In this document: in pieces, positions 23,935 through 56,059 of the stretch
How positions within the stretch are numbered: position 1 is the stretch's first letter
How the letters are laid out: each line of letters starts with the position of its first letter
Source of the DNA: a virus
IMG/VR virus record: IMGVR_UViG_3300042890_002798
Location: 1-58,038 of that record
Length of the DNA stretch: 58,038 nucleotides
Direction: 5' to 3' (one strand)
Program-made: the position numbers and the translations under genes
The notes under the pieces: model-generated
Database searches by the model: none
The model's input: only the letters and a program-made list of their open reading frames with translations
Told to the model about the DNA's origin: nothing

Positions 23935-24144
23935 ATGTTTAAAAATCTCACTGTTAGCTGGCACACGACTGTTTCCGGCATGATTCCGCTGATTGCCTAT
24001 GCGCTGAATTATTTTGGCATGTGGCCCAGCATTATGCCGCTTCCGCCGATCGACCAGGTATGGCCTTTTGTTGTGGCCGTATTGGGTATCGGTGCGTATG
24101 CCAAAGACGCAAACGTGACTGGCGGAAAGATCAGCCAAGAATGA
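23935..24144 (+). CDS. Holin-like protein
   Basis: The product is 69 aa. The ATG at 23935 follows GGAGAATAG. Two hydrophobic segments (about residues 12-32, VSGMIPLIAYALNYFGMW, and 42-57, VWPFVVAVLGIGAYA) are joined by a Pro-rich turn, and the C-terminus is charged and short. The size and topology fit a class II holin. It overlaps the next gene by 4 bases. Confidence 0.65.
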   Translation: MFKNLTVSWHTTVSGMIPLIAYALNYFGMWPSIMPLPPIDQVWPFVVAVLGIGAYAKDANVTGGKISQE

Positions 24145-24386
24145 ACTGGCTATCTCTCGCCATCAAGGTTATCCCTGCGATATTATCCATTATTCAGTGG
24201 CTAATATCCAGGGCTAACGACAAGAAGCTTATTGCAGAAGGCGAGAGACGCGCTATTTTGGCTAATGCAATGATTATTGCCTCCAAGGTTTCTATCGCTA
24301 AAAAGATAGAGGAGGAGGCAAAGGCGGACCACATTGCCAATCCTGATAGCGATGACGGTTTTGACACCGAGTTTATGAGAAAGTAA
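24141..24386 (+). CDS. Membrane-anchored coiled-coil protein of lysis cassette
   Basis: The product is 81 aa. An N-terminal membrane span (about residues 4-22) is followed by a charged helix (KKLIAEGERRAI...KKIEEEAKADH). This topology fits an inner spanin or antiholin. It lies between the holin-like gene and the Rz1-like gene. Confidence 0.6.
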   Translation: MNWLSLAIKVIPAILSIIQWLISRANDKKLIAEGERRAILANAMIIASKVSIAKKIEEEAKADHIANPDSDDGFDTEFMRK

Positions 24387-27373: not shown

Positions 27374-27590
27374 ATCTGTCTTTCATGTTCCATAGGTAGC
27401 TGGAGATTGCTTCCTGAACCAAATAAGACTGGCTCTTGCCTGTTTTTTCAGAGAACTTTTTGAGCTTGTGGATGATAGTATCATCCATACGAACGTTGAG
27501 TTGCTTCATTACAACTTTCGTTCGGCTCTCTCTGTGGCCTCGCGGCTTTGTAGACAAGTTACGATCATTTTGATCTTGTTTTTGGTGCAT
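27366..27590 (-). CDS. Ribbon-helix-helix DNA-binding protein
   Basis: The product is about 74 aa from the start at 27590, which has AGGGA upstream; a shorter form starting at 27509 would contain only the DNA-binding domain. The C-terminal 47 residues (VMKQLNVRMDDTIIHKLKKF, then SEKTGKSQSYLVQEAISSYL) are a clear RHH fold. It is a likely early repressor. The N-terminal part is basic and polar and overlaps the upstream HNH gene. Confidence 0.78.
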   Translation of the reverse strand: MHQKQDQNDRNLSTKPRGHRESRTKVVMKQLNVRMDDTIIHKLKKFSEKTGKSQSYLVQEAISSYLWNMKDRYG

Positions 27591-30189: not shown

Positions 30190-30417
30190 ATGGACGATTT
30201 ACACGAACACGCAAGCAGCCACTCAAACGTAAGCATGACCAATGCCGATTGGCGCAAGGTGATGGCGGATAGCCTTGGAGATCGGGCTCCGCCTAATACC
30301 AGAGAACGGTATCAGATTTACCGGGATGCTGGCGTTCCGGAGACGATGATAAACATTCTGGATGATATGGTTTTCTATGCTGCTCTACAGAAGGTGGGCA
30401 ATGAGAGCGCAGATTGA
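30190..30417 (+). CDS. Hypothetical early protein
   Basis: The product is 75 aa. The ATG at 30190 has AGGAG six bases upstream. It is rich in His and Asp at the N-terminus (DDLHEHASSHS) and helical after (RERYQIYRDAGVPETM). It overlaps the nuclease gene by 17 bases. No family is recognised. Confidence 0.62.
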   Translation: MDDLHEHASSHSNVSMTNADWRKVMADSLGDRAPPNTRERYQIYRDAGVPETMINILDDMVFYAALQKVGNESAD

Positions 30418-30757
30418 AAACAGCATTCAGAGATCAATAGTCGCATATTTGCGCACTGTGGTCCGCGACTGTGTGGTTATGGCGATCCCGAATGCGGCGC
30501 GTCGGACGATCAACGGAAAGCCCATGAATGCGGCTCCGGGTTTGCTTCCGGGCGCTCCCGATCTGGTCATAGCCTTTCCCGGTGGCAAGGTTTTGTGGTT
30601 GGAAGTCAAGGCTCCTAAAGGCGTCGTCAGTGATAATCAGGTTCTTGTCCATGAGCGTCTGGGCGAGATCGGGCATACGGTATACATCGTCCGCTCGATA
30701 GATGACGTTAAGGAAGTTATACAAAAATTAAACATAACAACGAGAGAGAAACAATGA
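30401..30757 (+). CDS. VRR-NUC domain nuclease
   Basis: The product is 118 aa. IPNAARR, then GLLPGAPDLVIAFPGGKVLW, then LEVKAPKGVVSDNQ is the VRR-NUC form of the PD-(D/E)xK fold, with Asp of GAPDL and Glu/Lys of LEVK as the metal site. It may resolve branched DNA during recombination or replication. It overlaps the following GcrA-like gene by 4 bases. Confidence 0.9.
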   Translation: MRAQIENSIQRSIVAYLRTVVRDCVVMAIPNAARRTINGKPMNAAPGLLPGAPDLVIAFPGGKVLWLEVKAPKGVVSDNQVLVHERLGEIGHTVYIVRSIDDVKEVIQKLNITTREKQ

Positions 30758-31422
30758 CCAAGAAAGCTGTATGGAACAAAGACAACGAGGAATTCTTGTC
30801 AAAGTTGCTAAACGCAGGTGCGACTGCGGCGCAGGCATCCGATGAGATTAATAACAAATTCGACATGTATTTTTCTCGCAATGCAATAATCAGCAAGGCA
30901 AGAAGATTAAAGCTGGAATTTGTCGTCAGGGTTGGAAGGAGTTATATTCCCGGATCTATAAAATATAATCAAACATATAAGATTAAAAAGGCAGATAATG
31001 TTGAGTTTATGAAAGCGTGGAAAGCAAATATCAAGATTCACGAATTGGAATCAATGTTCGGGATCAAGCGTAAATCTATACTTGAAAAGGCAAAAAAGCT
31101 AAAACTTGATAAAAGAGAAATAGATGAAAAGAGGTCGATTAGAGATATCAATTATTCAAAAGATATAAAATTCAAAAAGCTTCCGTCATTCATACGGGAA
31201 AGACAATCCTTTCCCAATCCAAAGGCTCTTGGTCTGAAGCTTTTGGAGCTTCGCAATAACCAATGCAGATACATCCTCGGCAGCGAGAGGCCATCGGATT
31301 TTCTGTATTGCGCTGCGCCAGTGGAGCCTGACTCTCCGGTCCCGTATTGCCCAACCTGTCGGGCGATTGTGTACGTAAAACCGTCAGGGCCGTCGCATAA
31401 GATTTTCAAGCTATACAGATGA
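30754..31422 (+). CDS. gcrA: GcrA-like cell-cycle transcription regulator
   Basis: The product is 222 aa. Residues 5-55 match the GcrA N-terminal HTH (WNKDNEEFLSKLLNAGATAA, then SRNAIISKARRL, where host GcrA has TRNAVIGKVHRL). Residues 82-120 look like a second HTH (ELESMFGIKRKSILEKAKKL). Residues 160-210 match the GcrA C-terminus that contacts sigma-70 (LLELRNNQCRYILGSERPSD, then FLYCAAP, then PYCPTCRAIVY); the last His of the usual CxxH is Cys. Host GcrA activates promoters carrying GANTC methylated by CcrM. The next promoter downstream contains a GANTC site, so autogenous or downstream control is plausible. Confidence 0.87.
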   Translation: MTKKAVWNKDNEEFLSKLLNAGATAAQASDEINNKFDMYFSRNAIISKARRLKLEFVVRVGRSYIPGSIKYNQTYKIKKADNVEFMKAWKANIKIHELESMFGIKRKSILEKAKKLKLDKREIDEKRSIRDINYSKDIKFKKLPSFIRERQSFPNPKALGLKLLELRNNQCRYILGSERPSDFLYCAAPVEPDSPVPYCPTCRAIVYVKPSGPSHKIFKLYR

Positions 31423-31462: not shown

Positions 31463-31491
31463 TTGACAGGCCGAGTCATTCGGCTTAGGAT
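31463..31491 (+). promoter_or_regulatory. Candidate promoter with GANTC in spacer
   Basis: Perfect TTGACA (31463-31468), a 17-base spacer and TAGGAT (31486-31491). The spacer holds a small palindrome GCCGA...TCGGC (31470-31484) with GAGTC, a GANTC site, at 31473-31477. In Caulobacter, GcrA-dependent promoters often have methylated GANTC between or near the -10 and -35. It would drive the 31564 gene, the structured RNA and the dCTP deaminase-helicase genes. Confidence 0.62.
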
Positions 31492-31563
31492 ATATTTCGG
31501 CTTCGTAAGAAGACAGCAACTTCTTATGAAACCTGAACATGAACAGTTGACCAGAGAACCGTT

Positions 31564-31869: not shown

Positions 31870-31894
31870 GCAGCGCCCTTCCATGCGTCCTTAA

Positions 31895-32120
31895 CCATCC
31901 GCCGGCAAAGGCGAGAGACCCGGCATATGCCGATCGAGTCAGGACAACAGTTGCCTTTGGGAAATAGTAAAATGGGGCCTGTCCCGGGCCAGTGGGAAAT
32001 CTTGCGGAAAGATCCACCATACCTGACGAATGCATACGATACACAAGTCCTCATGGTGAGGCCGGAGCCGGCAAGCAGATGCCGATAGTAGGGAGAACCT
32101 ACATCTGAGTCAGGGAATAC
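31895..32120 (+). ncRNA. Candidate structured non-coding RNA
   Basis: The stretch 31870-32265 has no convincing gene. On the plus strand it contains nested pairings: CAAAGGC/GCCTTTG (31906-31912 with 31953-31959) enclosing CGGCATATGCCG; GTGG+ATCTT with AAGAT+CCAC (31992-32017, 3-base bulge); CCTCA/TGAGG (32049-32061); GCCG/CGGC (32061-32072); and CAGAT+GTAGG with CCTAC+ATCTG (32076-32107, 7-base bulge). Several hairpins sit back to back with little spacing. No tRNA, tmRNA, RNase P or group I intron signature was recognised. It may be a leader, a regulatory RNA or a packaged RNA. Confidence 0.45.
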
Positions 32121-32265
32121 CAGAACCGCTGCCAAACCCGTCCGTATAGACCCAATGGCCAAGGTCCAGGTCGCCGGGTCGCCCACTCCAGACTCAATTG
32201 TCCGGATTAGTGGTATCGGAGCATACGGGAGAGGGAGCTATGCCCAAATTCAGGAGAATGTTTAC

Positions 32266-32754
32266 ATGGAAGATGATTACCTGCCTGACAATGTGAGGCC
32301 AGAGAAGCACGCCTATCGAGATGAGGATATCAGTAGACGCCACAGAATGTGGGGGTTTAACTGTCCAGCCGCCGACCTTGATTTTGTGATGGTGGAATAC
32401 AACATCGGCAAGCCTGTCGCGCTTGTTGAGTATAAATATTACCTGCACAAGATCACGGATTTTAACCATCCCACATACAGGGCGATTCGCTGTCTGGCGG
32501 ACGAATACAAAAGTGGACCGTTGCCATTTATCGTATCGCTTTATTCACGTGACGACTGGTCGTTTAGGGTATACTGTGTGAATGAAGCTGCTGAGAAGCA
32601 TTTCTGTTCTGGCGAGCATTTGTCTGAACTGGAATATGTCCAGCGTCTTTACCGAATGCGCCGTCAGGCACTGGCCAAACATCTGGAAAATCAACTCAAC
32701 ACAACGATCAAGGAAAAATCAAATGGCGCAATTGTCAGCCCAATCTATCCGTAA
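32266..32754 (+). CDS. Putative PD-(D/E)xK-like protein
   Basis: The product is 162 aa. The ATG at 32266 has AGGAG nine bases upstream; an in-frame extension to 32155 would enter the structured region and lacks a ribosome site. MWGFNCPAADLDFVMVEYN, then PVALVEYKYY gives the order D-x(n)-E-x-K that marks PD-(D/E)xK nucleases, followed by a helix and FIVSLYSRDDWSFRVYCV strands. A nuclease or restriction-like fold is inferred from these few residues only. It overlaps the dCTP deaminase start by 32 bases. Confidence 0.68.
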   Translation: MEDDYLPDNVRPEKHAYRDEDISRRHRMWGFNCPAADLDFVMVEYNIGKPVALVEYKYYLHKITDFNHPTYRAIRCLADEYKSGPLPFIVSLYSRDDWSFRVYCVNEAAEKHFCSGEHLSELEYVQRLYRMRRQALAKHLENQLNTTIKEKSNGAIVSPIYP

Positions 32755-51900: not shown

Positions 51901-51902
51901 TC

Positions 51903-52055
51903 ATGGGCAGAAGGCCGAAGTTTGACAGGAATGAAAAGATCCTCGCAATGCGGCTTTCTGGCGTGACCTATAAAGAAATAGCCTCTGCCTTTGGGATAAC
52001 TAAAGGCAGGGCTTTTCAGATTTGCAAATATATGATGGAAAAAAGAGGAGGCTAA
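51903..52055 (+). CDS. Small HTH protein
   Basis: The product is 50 aa. LSGVTYKEIASAFGITKGRA is a resolvase-type HTH (two helices joined by a tight turn), preceded by a basic start MGRRPKFDRNEK. It is tightly packed between two structural genes and ends where the next gene's ribosome site lies. A DNA-binding regulator of late genes is possible. Confidence 0.65.
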   Translation: MGRRPKFDRNEKILAMRLSGVTYKEIASAFGITKGRAFQICKYMMEKRGG

Positions 52056-55058: not shown

Positions 55059-55970
55059 ATGGCTGTTAATCTTAGCGCCATCCGCGATCTGCTCCTTCCG
55101 GGCCTTCGCGGTGTTGAGGGTAAGTATCCTCAGATCCCGAGTCAGTGGGACAAGGTCTTTGAAAAGGCCAAGTCCAACATGGCTCTCGAGCGTACCGCTG
55201 AAATGCGTTACCTCGGCCTTGCCGCCATCAAGACTGAAGGCGGTGCGGTTAGCTTCGACAACAACGCTTCCGAGCGTTACGTCTATAATCAGGAGCATTA
55301 CGAGATCGGTCTCGGCTACGCGATCACTCGTAAGGCGATTGATGACAACCTGTATAAGACCCAGTTCACGCCCACGAATCTTGGCCTGATCGAGTCCTTC
55401 GGTCAGACGAAGGAAATCTATGGCGCGAACATTCTTAACACGGCGACGACGTATAACTCGGCGGTCGGCGGTGACGGTGTTGCTCTCTGCTCCACCTCGC
55501 ATCCGATTGACGGCGGCGTTGTTGCTAATCGCCCGACTGTCGACGTTGATCTTAACGAAGCCTCGCTGCTTAACGGTATGATCAGCATTCGTCAGAACTT
55601 CAAGGACATCGCCGGCCTGAAGATGTTTGCGCGTGGTCGCAAGCTCATCATTCCGCCGACCCTTGAGCCGACGGCGATTCGCCTTACCAAGACGGAACTC
55701 CGTCCGGGCACGGCAAACAACGACGTCAACGCGATCCATACGACCGCAGGCGGTCTGCCGGAAGGCTACATGGTCAACGACTTCCTGACTTCGACGAAGG
55801 CCTGGTTCCTTCTGACGAATATCAAGGGTCTTGTCTACATGGAGCGTATCCCGTACGAAATGGATATGCAGGTAGACTTCACCACGGATAATTTGCTAGT
55901 GAAGGGATATGAACGTTATAGTTTCGGCTACTACAATTGGCGCTCAATTTTTGGTAGCTTCCCGACCTAA
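55059..55970 (+). CDS. Major capsid protein (Mu gpT-like)
   Basis: The product is 303 aa. NLSAIRDLLLPGLRGVEGKY, then FDNNASERYVYNQEHYEIGL, then AITRKAIDDNLY fit the gpT-type HK97-fold capsid family. The length is right, the Shine-Dalgarno AAGGAG is strong, and codon use is GC-rich with few rare codons. No maturation protease was found nearby, so processing is doubtful. Confidence 0.9.
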   Translation: MAVNLSAIRDLLLPGLRGVEGKYPQIPSQWDKVFEKAKSNMALERTAEMRYLGLAAIKTEGGAVSFDNNASERYVYNQEHYEIGLGYAITRKAIDDNLYKTQFTPTNLGLIESFGQTKEIYGANILNTATTYNSAVGGDGVALCSTSHPIDGGVVANRPTVDVDLNEASLLNGMISIRQNFKDIAGLKMFARGRKLIIPPTLEPTAIRLTKTELRPGTANNDVNAIHTTAGGLPEGYMVNDFLTSTKAWFLLTNIKGLVYMERIPYEMDMQVDFTTDNLLVKGYERYSFGYYNWRSIFGSFPT

Positions 55971-55976
55971 TTGATT

Positions 55977-56019
55977 TAAGTCGCTGTATTTATTCAACAA
56001 TGCAGCGACTTAATATTTT
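55977..56019 (+). terminator. Terminator-like hairpin after capsid gene
   Basis: TAAGTCGCTG (55977-55986) pairs with CAGCGACTTA (56003-56012), 10 bp with a 16-base loop, followed by ATATTTTC. It probably ends most capsid transcripts and isolates the following endonuclease unit. Confidence 0.7.
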
Positions 56020-56030
56020 CGGGTGTTGGC

Positions 56031-56059
56031 TTTACATTATCATTAAGCCAAAGTATAAT
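56031..56059 (+). promoter_or_regulatory. Strong promoter of the endonuclease gene
   Basis: TTTACA (56031-56036), a 17-base spacer and a perfect TATAAT (56054-56059), 33 bases before the ATG at 56093. It has the best -10 box of the promoter candidates listed. Confidence 0.72.

Follow-up and report, generated by a model that had tools for sequence, protein, structure and literature searches.

A probable new structured RNA of about 354 nt between two genes of an uncultured phage

The locus and its genes

The window analysed in this study is the whole 58,038-base virus record IMGVR_UViG_3300042890_002798, and the site is read on its + strand (Table 1). Genes for a VRR-NUC nuclease and a GcrA-family protein are followed by a sigma-70-type promoter, the u101 gene, the element described here and a phrog_16357-family gene, beyond which dCTP deaminase, a DUF3310 protein and a helicase are encoded in this order. 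The u101 stop codon lies 15 nt before P1, the helix predicted to close the element. When the + strand was scanned from the promoter to the next gene, neither a terminator nor a T-tract was detected, as an earlier note on this DNA had claimed, and no promoter or terminator belonging to the element itself was found.

Two homologous loci, L076 (IMG/VR 3300033571_003641) and L077 (IMG/VR 3300046009_002641), were recovered from IMG/VR by the DNA pattern of one hairpin, GGAAAGATCCACCATACC; searches via the neighbouring proteins returned identical or unrelated contigs only. In all three phages, a u101 homologue precedes the element, a start codon follows it, and the same helicase is encoded further downstream. 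The u101 protein of the window is 38% and 32% identical to its relatives (48-49% at the DNA level). The gene directly after the element belongs to the phrog_16357 family in the window, whereas it encodes an 87-aa protein in L076, followed by a second small gene, and a 189-aa protein in L077. The "nuclease-like" gene that had been named as the downstream neighbour is therefore not a fixed one. Genes have thus been swapped in the interval from the RNA to the helicase (32266-32754 in the window, L076:5581-6248, L077:1483-2052), and the conserved RNA marks a border of this swapping point.

The promoter had previously been described as a GANTC promoter. A GAGTC is indeed present inside it, but promoters resembling it upstream of the u101 homologues in L076 and L077 are without GANTC, and the three GANTC in the window's element (GAGTC motifs) are also absent from the homologues. 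Because neither the promoter GANTC nor the internal GAGTC motifs are conserved, a GcrA/GANTC link is not supported, and the idea of a GANTC/GcrA operator was rejected. The phage GcrA and a protein with a DnaA C-terminal domain (PF08299, 42090-42608), both also encoded in L076, are relatives of alphaproteobacterial cell-cycle regulators, and the window has fewer GANTC sites than expected (136 vs 225).

Just after the promoter, a hairpin is present at the transcript start in all three phages (31498-31535, L076:4929-4952 and L077:795-818). Its sequence is AAGAAG-acagcaa-CUUCUU (z -4.7) for the window, against GGGG-cugcaa-CCCC (z about 0) for the relatives; the GCAA loop is common to them and the stem differs. 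The hairpin may stabilise the 5' end or be a site of the antitermination type. A circularly permuted relative with 98% identity to the window, IMGVR_UViG_3300044610_000230, ends exactly at window 30322 and 35870, so its copy of the element is missing; this 5.5-kb module is absent or unassembled there, and breaks close to 33.1 and 33.9 kb are seen in further near-identical contigs.

In every frame, codon statistics of the stretch range from uninformative to negative. Searches returned neither a protein family nor a homologous protein for it, and the small indels between the homologous copies have lengths that are not multiples of three, with no frame conserved. These results agree with the earlier note that the stretch lacks a believable gene, and a conserved protein, which the note had named as evidence against an RNA, was not found here. 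One frame is open for 72 codons, and stop counts this low occur in 56% of shuffles. TAG is the ordinary stop in 8 of the 54 genes of this phage, so the partly open frame does not point to recoding; readthrough or TAG recoding that joins u101 to the nuclease was rejected, since TAG is a normal stop and homologues of such a product are lacking. The GC content of the stretch is 55%, compared with 43-46% in the flanks.

Table 1. Positions of genes, signals and predicted RNA parts in the window
Feature	Position	Strand	Remark
VRR-NUC nuclease gene	30362-30757	+	
GcrA-family protein gene	30754-31422	+	PF07750
Sigma-70-type promoter TTGACA-17-TAGGAT	31463-31491	+	GAGTC inside at 31473; precedes u101
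u101 gene, 101 aa	31564-31869	+	homologue 5' of the RNA element in 3/3 phages
Structured RNA element, about 354 nt (candidate)	31885-32238	+	full-length homologues; 7 compensatory pairs
P1 closing helix, 5' strand GC + UCCUU	31885-31892	+	pairs with 32232-32238; two C-G/U-G changes
P2 hairpin, bulged A	31898-31916	+	2 compensatory pairs
P3 hairpin, lower GAC/GUC, upper CGGC/GCCG	31917-31940	+	3 compensatory pairs
GGACA, possible pseudoknot with UGUCC 31980-31984 (P5 loop)	31942-31946	+	invariant 3/3; no covariation
P5 hairpin	31976-31990	+	1 compensatory pair
P6 hairpin, asymmetric GAA bulge, loop GCGGA	31991-32018	+	invariant except outermost pair
P7 5' strand CCUGAC	32022-32027	+	pairs with GUCAGG 32109-32114; invariant
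P15 5' strands AUGC + CGAUAC	32030-32042	+	pair with 32213-32224; pairs invariant
P8 hairpin, loop AUGGN	32049-32061	+	1 compensatory pair
P9 hairpin CGGCA/UGCCG	32069-32084	+	stem invariant
P10 hairpin GUAGG/CCUAC	32088-32102	+	UAGGGUG/CAUCCUA in homologues; z -3.1 window, -2.6 homologues
P11 small hairpin CAG/CUG	32121-32131	+	within invariant 24-nt block
P12 5' strand CCGU	32142-32145	+	pairs with ACGG 32225-32228; invariant
P13 variable hairpin GACCC/GGGUC	32149-32180	+	GGCC/GGCC in L076, GUCCCC/GGGGGC in L077
P14 variable hairpin	32183-32213	+	closed on invariant GUGG in 3/3
P15 3' strands GUAUCG + GCAU	32213-32224	+	inside invariant 35-nt block
P1 3' strand AGGGAGC	32232-32238	+	inside invariant 35-nt block
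Shine-Dalgarno AGGAGA + start ATG (32266)	32252-32268	+	ribosome-binding site conserved
phrog_16357-family gene	32266-32754	+	directly 3' of the element

Conservation and base pairing of the element

About a dozen helices can be placed in the element, in line with the packed base-paired elements described before, and the asymmetric bulges are there as well (GAA in P6, a bulged A in P2, offset loops in P3 and P10). The limits given earlier, 31895-32265, come close; the conserved element begins ten bases upstream of them and ends before an equally conserved 27-nt spacer that holds the ribosome-binding site and leads to the ATG. According to the proposed fold, P1 would tie the ends of the element together around the 5' hairpins P2, P3, P5 and P6; a central core would be made of P7, P8, P9, P10, P11, P15 and P12, and P13 and P14 would be variable peripheral hairpins. 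P7 and P12 each cross P15, which gives a pseudoknot if both helices form, and the central core is probably pseudoknotted. The outermost pair of P6 is broken in the window (A.C), and small indels adjoin the 5' strands of P15 in L077. An alternative switch hairpin, P16 (GCAUA/UAUGC), is conserved but thermodynamically weak (-2.1 kcal/mol).

In the window sequence alone, the structure does not go beyond chance; it exceeds chance only through comparison with the homologues. The minimum free energy of the whole element against shuffles gave z = -0.97 for the + strand and -1.51 for the - strand, and 120-nt sliding windows over the element ranked mid-field or worse among the 966 windows of the phage. 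Local hairpins were mixed: 32070-32112 folds well (z -2.9), and several others are no better than shuffles. Minimum-energy helices of the window, such as CCCUUCC.../...GGGAGAGGG and GACCCGGC/GCCGGGUC, were dropped because they are not kept in the homologues, and an internal near-duplication, in which GCCGGCAA, ATGCCGAT and GAGTCAGG each occur twice, was rejected as a feature for the same reason. A structured RNA of such average folding energy can be missed by stability scans and recovered with a few distant homologues. The strongest local RNA folds of the window lie at 27421-27540, 55921-56040, 51901-52020 and 24121-24240 (z -5 to -6.8), mostly at gene ends, and are likely terminators.

The element aligns over its full length with L076 and L077 at 76-77% identity (BLAST E about 1e-70), and runs of 37, 24 and 35 nt are unchanged in all three phages. 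When the window is compared with L076/L077 at four-fold degenerate sites, the helicase, the terminase and a 178-aa protein reach only 26-41% identity. Invariant runs that persist despite such diverged sites point to strong purifying selection on the element at the nucleotide level. The element is more conserved at this level than the surrounding genes and is among the best-preserved stretches found in the neighbourhood.

Pairing was counted for 74 proposed pairs in the three sequences, using a plain MAFFT alignment (A2) made without regard to the structure. Pairing is held in 98.2% of the cells, and seven pairs in P2, P3 (both lower and upper stem), P5 and P8 show compensatory double changes. 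Shuffled controls had a mean of 2.4 such pairs, with none of 500 reaching seven, and sliding the partners by 1-3 columns left 0-2. Moreover, P10, P13 and P14 differ in sequence between the phages, to the point that MAFFT cannot align them, and retain their hairpin pairing. P13 is kept as a hairpin with different sequence and length and is weak when taken alone (z -1.7, -0.5 and -1.6); P14 has an unrelated inner sequence in each phage, and each folds as a hairpin (z -2.6, -3.3 and -3.2). Covariation in homologues, the check that the earlier note had set, is thus provided by the seven compensatory pairs and the rebuilt P10, P13 and P14, and the structured RNA it had suspected gains support from these pairs and from the conservation of the homologues.

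The one-sided changes in P1 are of the C-G/U-G type, and pairing holds there only with + strand RNA; non-pairing cells number four for the + strand vs eight for the - strand. As read from this alignment, the G-U changes place the RNA on the + strand. It should be mentioned that the structure was drawn partly from the same three sequences that were used for counting; some local hairpins, among them P2, P9, P10, P13 and the upper P3 stem, had come out of earlier predictions on the window sequence by itself, which makes the count less circular. Since there are only three sequences, the invariant helices P6, P7, P9, P12 and P15 and the pseudoknots are without covariation support. RNAalifold column-shuffle scores (z -3.3 to -3.5; minus strand -3.1) were dropped as evidence, because helicase coding controls score as well (-2 to -5). 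Judging from the homologue comparison, a conserved structured RNA very probably exists at this site.

Searches for relatives and comparison with known RNAs

No match to the window was found in Rfam 15 at E<=10, which includes GOLLD, ROOL, RNase P, tmRNA, group I/II introns and riboswitches. L076 and L077 gave none at gathering score, with only sub-threshold mir-92 and GHRLOS at chance level (E 0.15-9.7). ARAGORN detected no tRNA or tmRNA, and hammerhead, RNase P and group I motifs sought by eye gave nothing convincing. Hence the earlier statement that no tRNA or tmRNA signature is present stands, and the Rfam search then proposed matched no family. A group I intron was rejected, given the intact genes on both sides and no intron model match in the three copies (E<=10). 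Tandem direct repeats, as in a type III toxin-antitoxin RNA, were sought and not found, and this candidate was also rejected, the downstream genes being unrelated among the phages.

By blastn with DNA from different copies, no copy was detected in 50,697 phage records or 72,556 plasmids, and two other patterns of 16-18 nt gave only chance matches in viral contigs besides the copies already known. A covariance model built on the core (31991-32131) found only the three known copies among 60 loci, 38 related records and 385 Alphaproteobacteria genomes, and no copy in the distant phages MW202675 and MW960033. As these searches were limited, absence from the searched sets is weak evidence. Literature searches returned no description of this RNA. 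The element, found in neither Rfam nor the searched collections of phages and plasmids, is very probably a previously undescribed RNA and a member of no Rfam 15 family.

The put RNA of HK022 is a two-hairpin element, well under 100 nt, near a promoter. It is an antitermination element in an early phage transcript and acts in cis by its structure (PMC9378689). The present element is likewise an RNA structure predicted within an early phage transcript, with cis action proposed, and differs in being several times as large and in its place, which is behind a gene and about 385 nt from the transcript start. The manA and wcaG motifs are phage-borne 5'-UTR motifs of cyanophages that are thought to be cis-regulatory (PMC2864571). 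Like them, the element is a structured RNA before genes of an uncultured phage; unlike it, they precede other kinds of genes, in cyanophages, and the element is without an Rfam match. Group I introns are similar in size and share a conserved core, variable peripheral hairpins and crossing helices, whereas the element has no Rfam match at E<=10 and is not within a gene, and the P/Q/R/S elements cannot be convincingly placed.

GOLLD and ROOL are "ornate" RNAs of phages and prophages, about 660 to over 800 nt in length and often near tRNA islands (PMC12286853). The element is likewise phage-encoded and large, with an elaborate conserved secondary structure of many helices recognised by sequence comparison, its pseudoknots being only probable. 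It is shorter than GOLLD and ROOL, at about 354 nt, and no tRNA genes are found next to it; its place is within an operon, immediately ahead of a start codon, and the Rfam models of both RNAs fail to match it. The closest resemblance is to these orphan large phage RNAs (PMC12286853) or to a large structured leader.

Proposed role and alternatives

Our preferred reading, to which we give a probability of about 0.5, is that the element is a new + strand structured RNA of about 354 nt within the operon transcript, acting as a cis leader. It would be made as part of a transcript that starts near 31498. The element is co-oriented with the next gene and stands at a fixed distance before the ribosome-binding site, with exactly 27 nt from the end of P1 to the next ATG in all three phages; the promoter and the lack of a terminator suggest that both are on the same transcript. 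In the window, this ATG is supported by the phrog_16357 alignment. Cis control of the following start as the main role, which we rate slightly below even odds from the sequence comparison, would mean that the element sets the timing or strength of translation of the next gene and of the helicase further down. P1 might be opened or stabilised by ribosomes terminating on u101, by a phage or host protein, or by a ligand, and its 3' strand lies 27 nt before the start codon. A cis leader is favoured by the placement in the operon without own promoter or terminator, the fixed distance to the start, the swapped gene and the nearness of P1 to the ribosome-binding site. On the other hand, the size and invariance of the element are above what is usual for a simple translation leader.

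The next gene is different in each phage, which indicates that the RNA was kept while its neighbour was exchanged. Tentatively, the element may belong to a novel class of large phage RNAs that are active in their own right (as a catalyst, an RNA-protein machine or an RNA-only machine); it would then be carried in a recombination/replication operon and conserved independently of the next gene. Beyond the classic examples, large RNAs of elaborate fold are rare, and they have often proved to act as ribozymes, scaffolds or unusual regulators; the present one is short enough to be transcribed, probed and assayed, which makes its role directly testable.

Rather unlikely, in our estimate, is a free-standing RNA that is cut from the operon transcript and works in trans, alone, with a protein, or as an RNA-only assembly like GOLLD and ROOL, the phage precedents for it (PMC12286853). 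The size, the end-to-end closing helix, the long invariant blocks and the variable peripheral hairpins do resemble stand-alone RNAs, and the RNA is kept independently of the non-conserved downstream gene; however, it has no promoter or terminator of its own, and the conserved start distance and ribosome-binding site would be needless for action in trans.

The invariant junctions and the likely crossing of P7, P15 and P12 are typical of catalytic RNAs, and a ribozyme that processes the operon mRNA, either self-cleaving or a divergent remnant of a self-splicing intron, was considered. We regard it as improbable: the three copies gave no match at E<=10 to the ribozyme and intron models of Rfam, and splicing would join nothing obvious between complete genes with their own stop and start codons.

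A DNA-level element (a replication origin, or a protein-binding or recombination site) that forms hairpins by chance seems very improbable. The total invariance of P6, P7, P9 and P15 is stricter than base pairing needs, and genes are swapped at the 3' edge, as at recombination points; nevertheless, the compensatory changes keep RNA pairing, with G-U pairs possible only in + strand RNA, there are no iterons, and the homologues do not share the repeated 8-mers of the window. Ordinary intergenic sequence, or a short coding or decayed gene, fits the average single-sequence folding and the one open frame of 72 codons, and is scarcely credible in view of the strong conservation, the non-triplet indels, a frame openness expected by chance, the lack of a conserved frame or protein homologue, and the compensatory pairs that largely contradict it.

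Around the start codon that follows the RNA, a conserved dyad, ATGTnnACAT (32256-32268), overlaps the ATG in all three phages. In the relatives, a tiny ORF that begins at 32240, AUG-CCN-AAA, owes its in-frame stop (TAA, TAG) to the nn of the dyad; the dyad and the tiny ORF could be an operator or a leader peptide.
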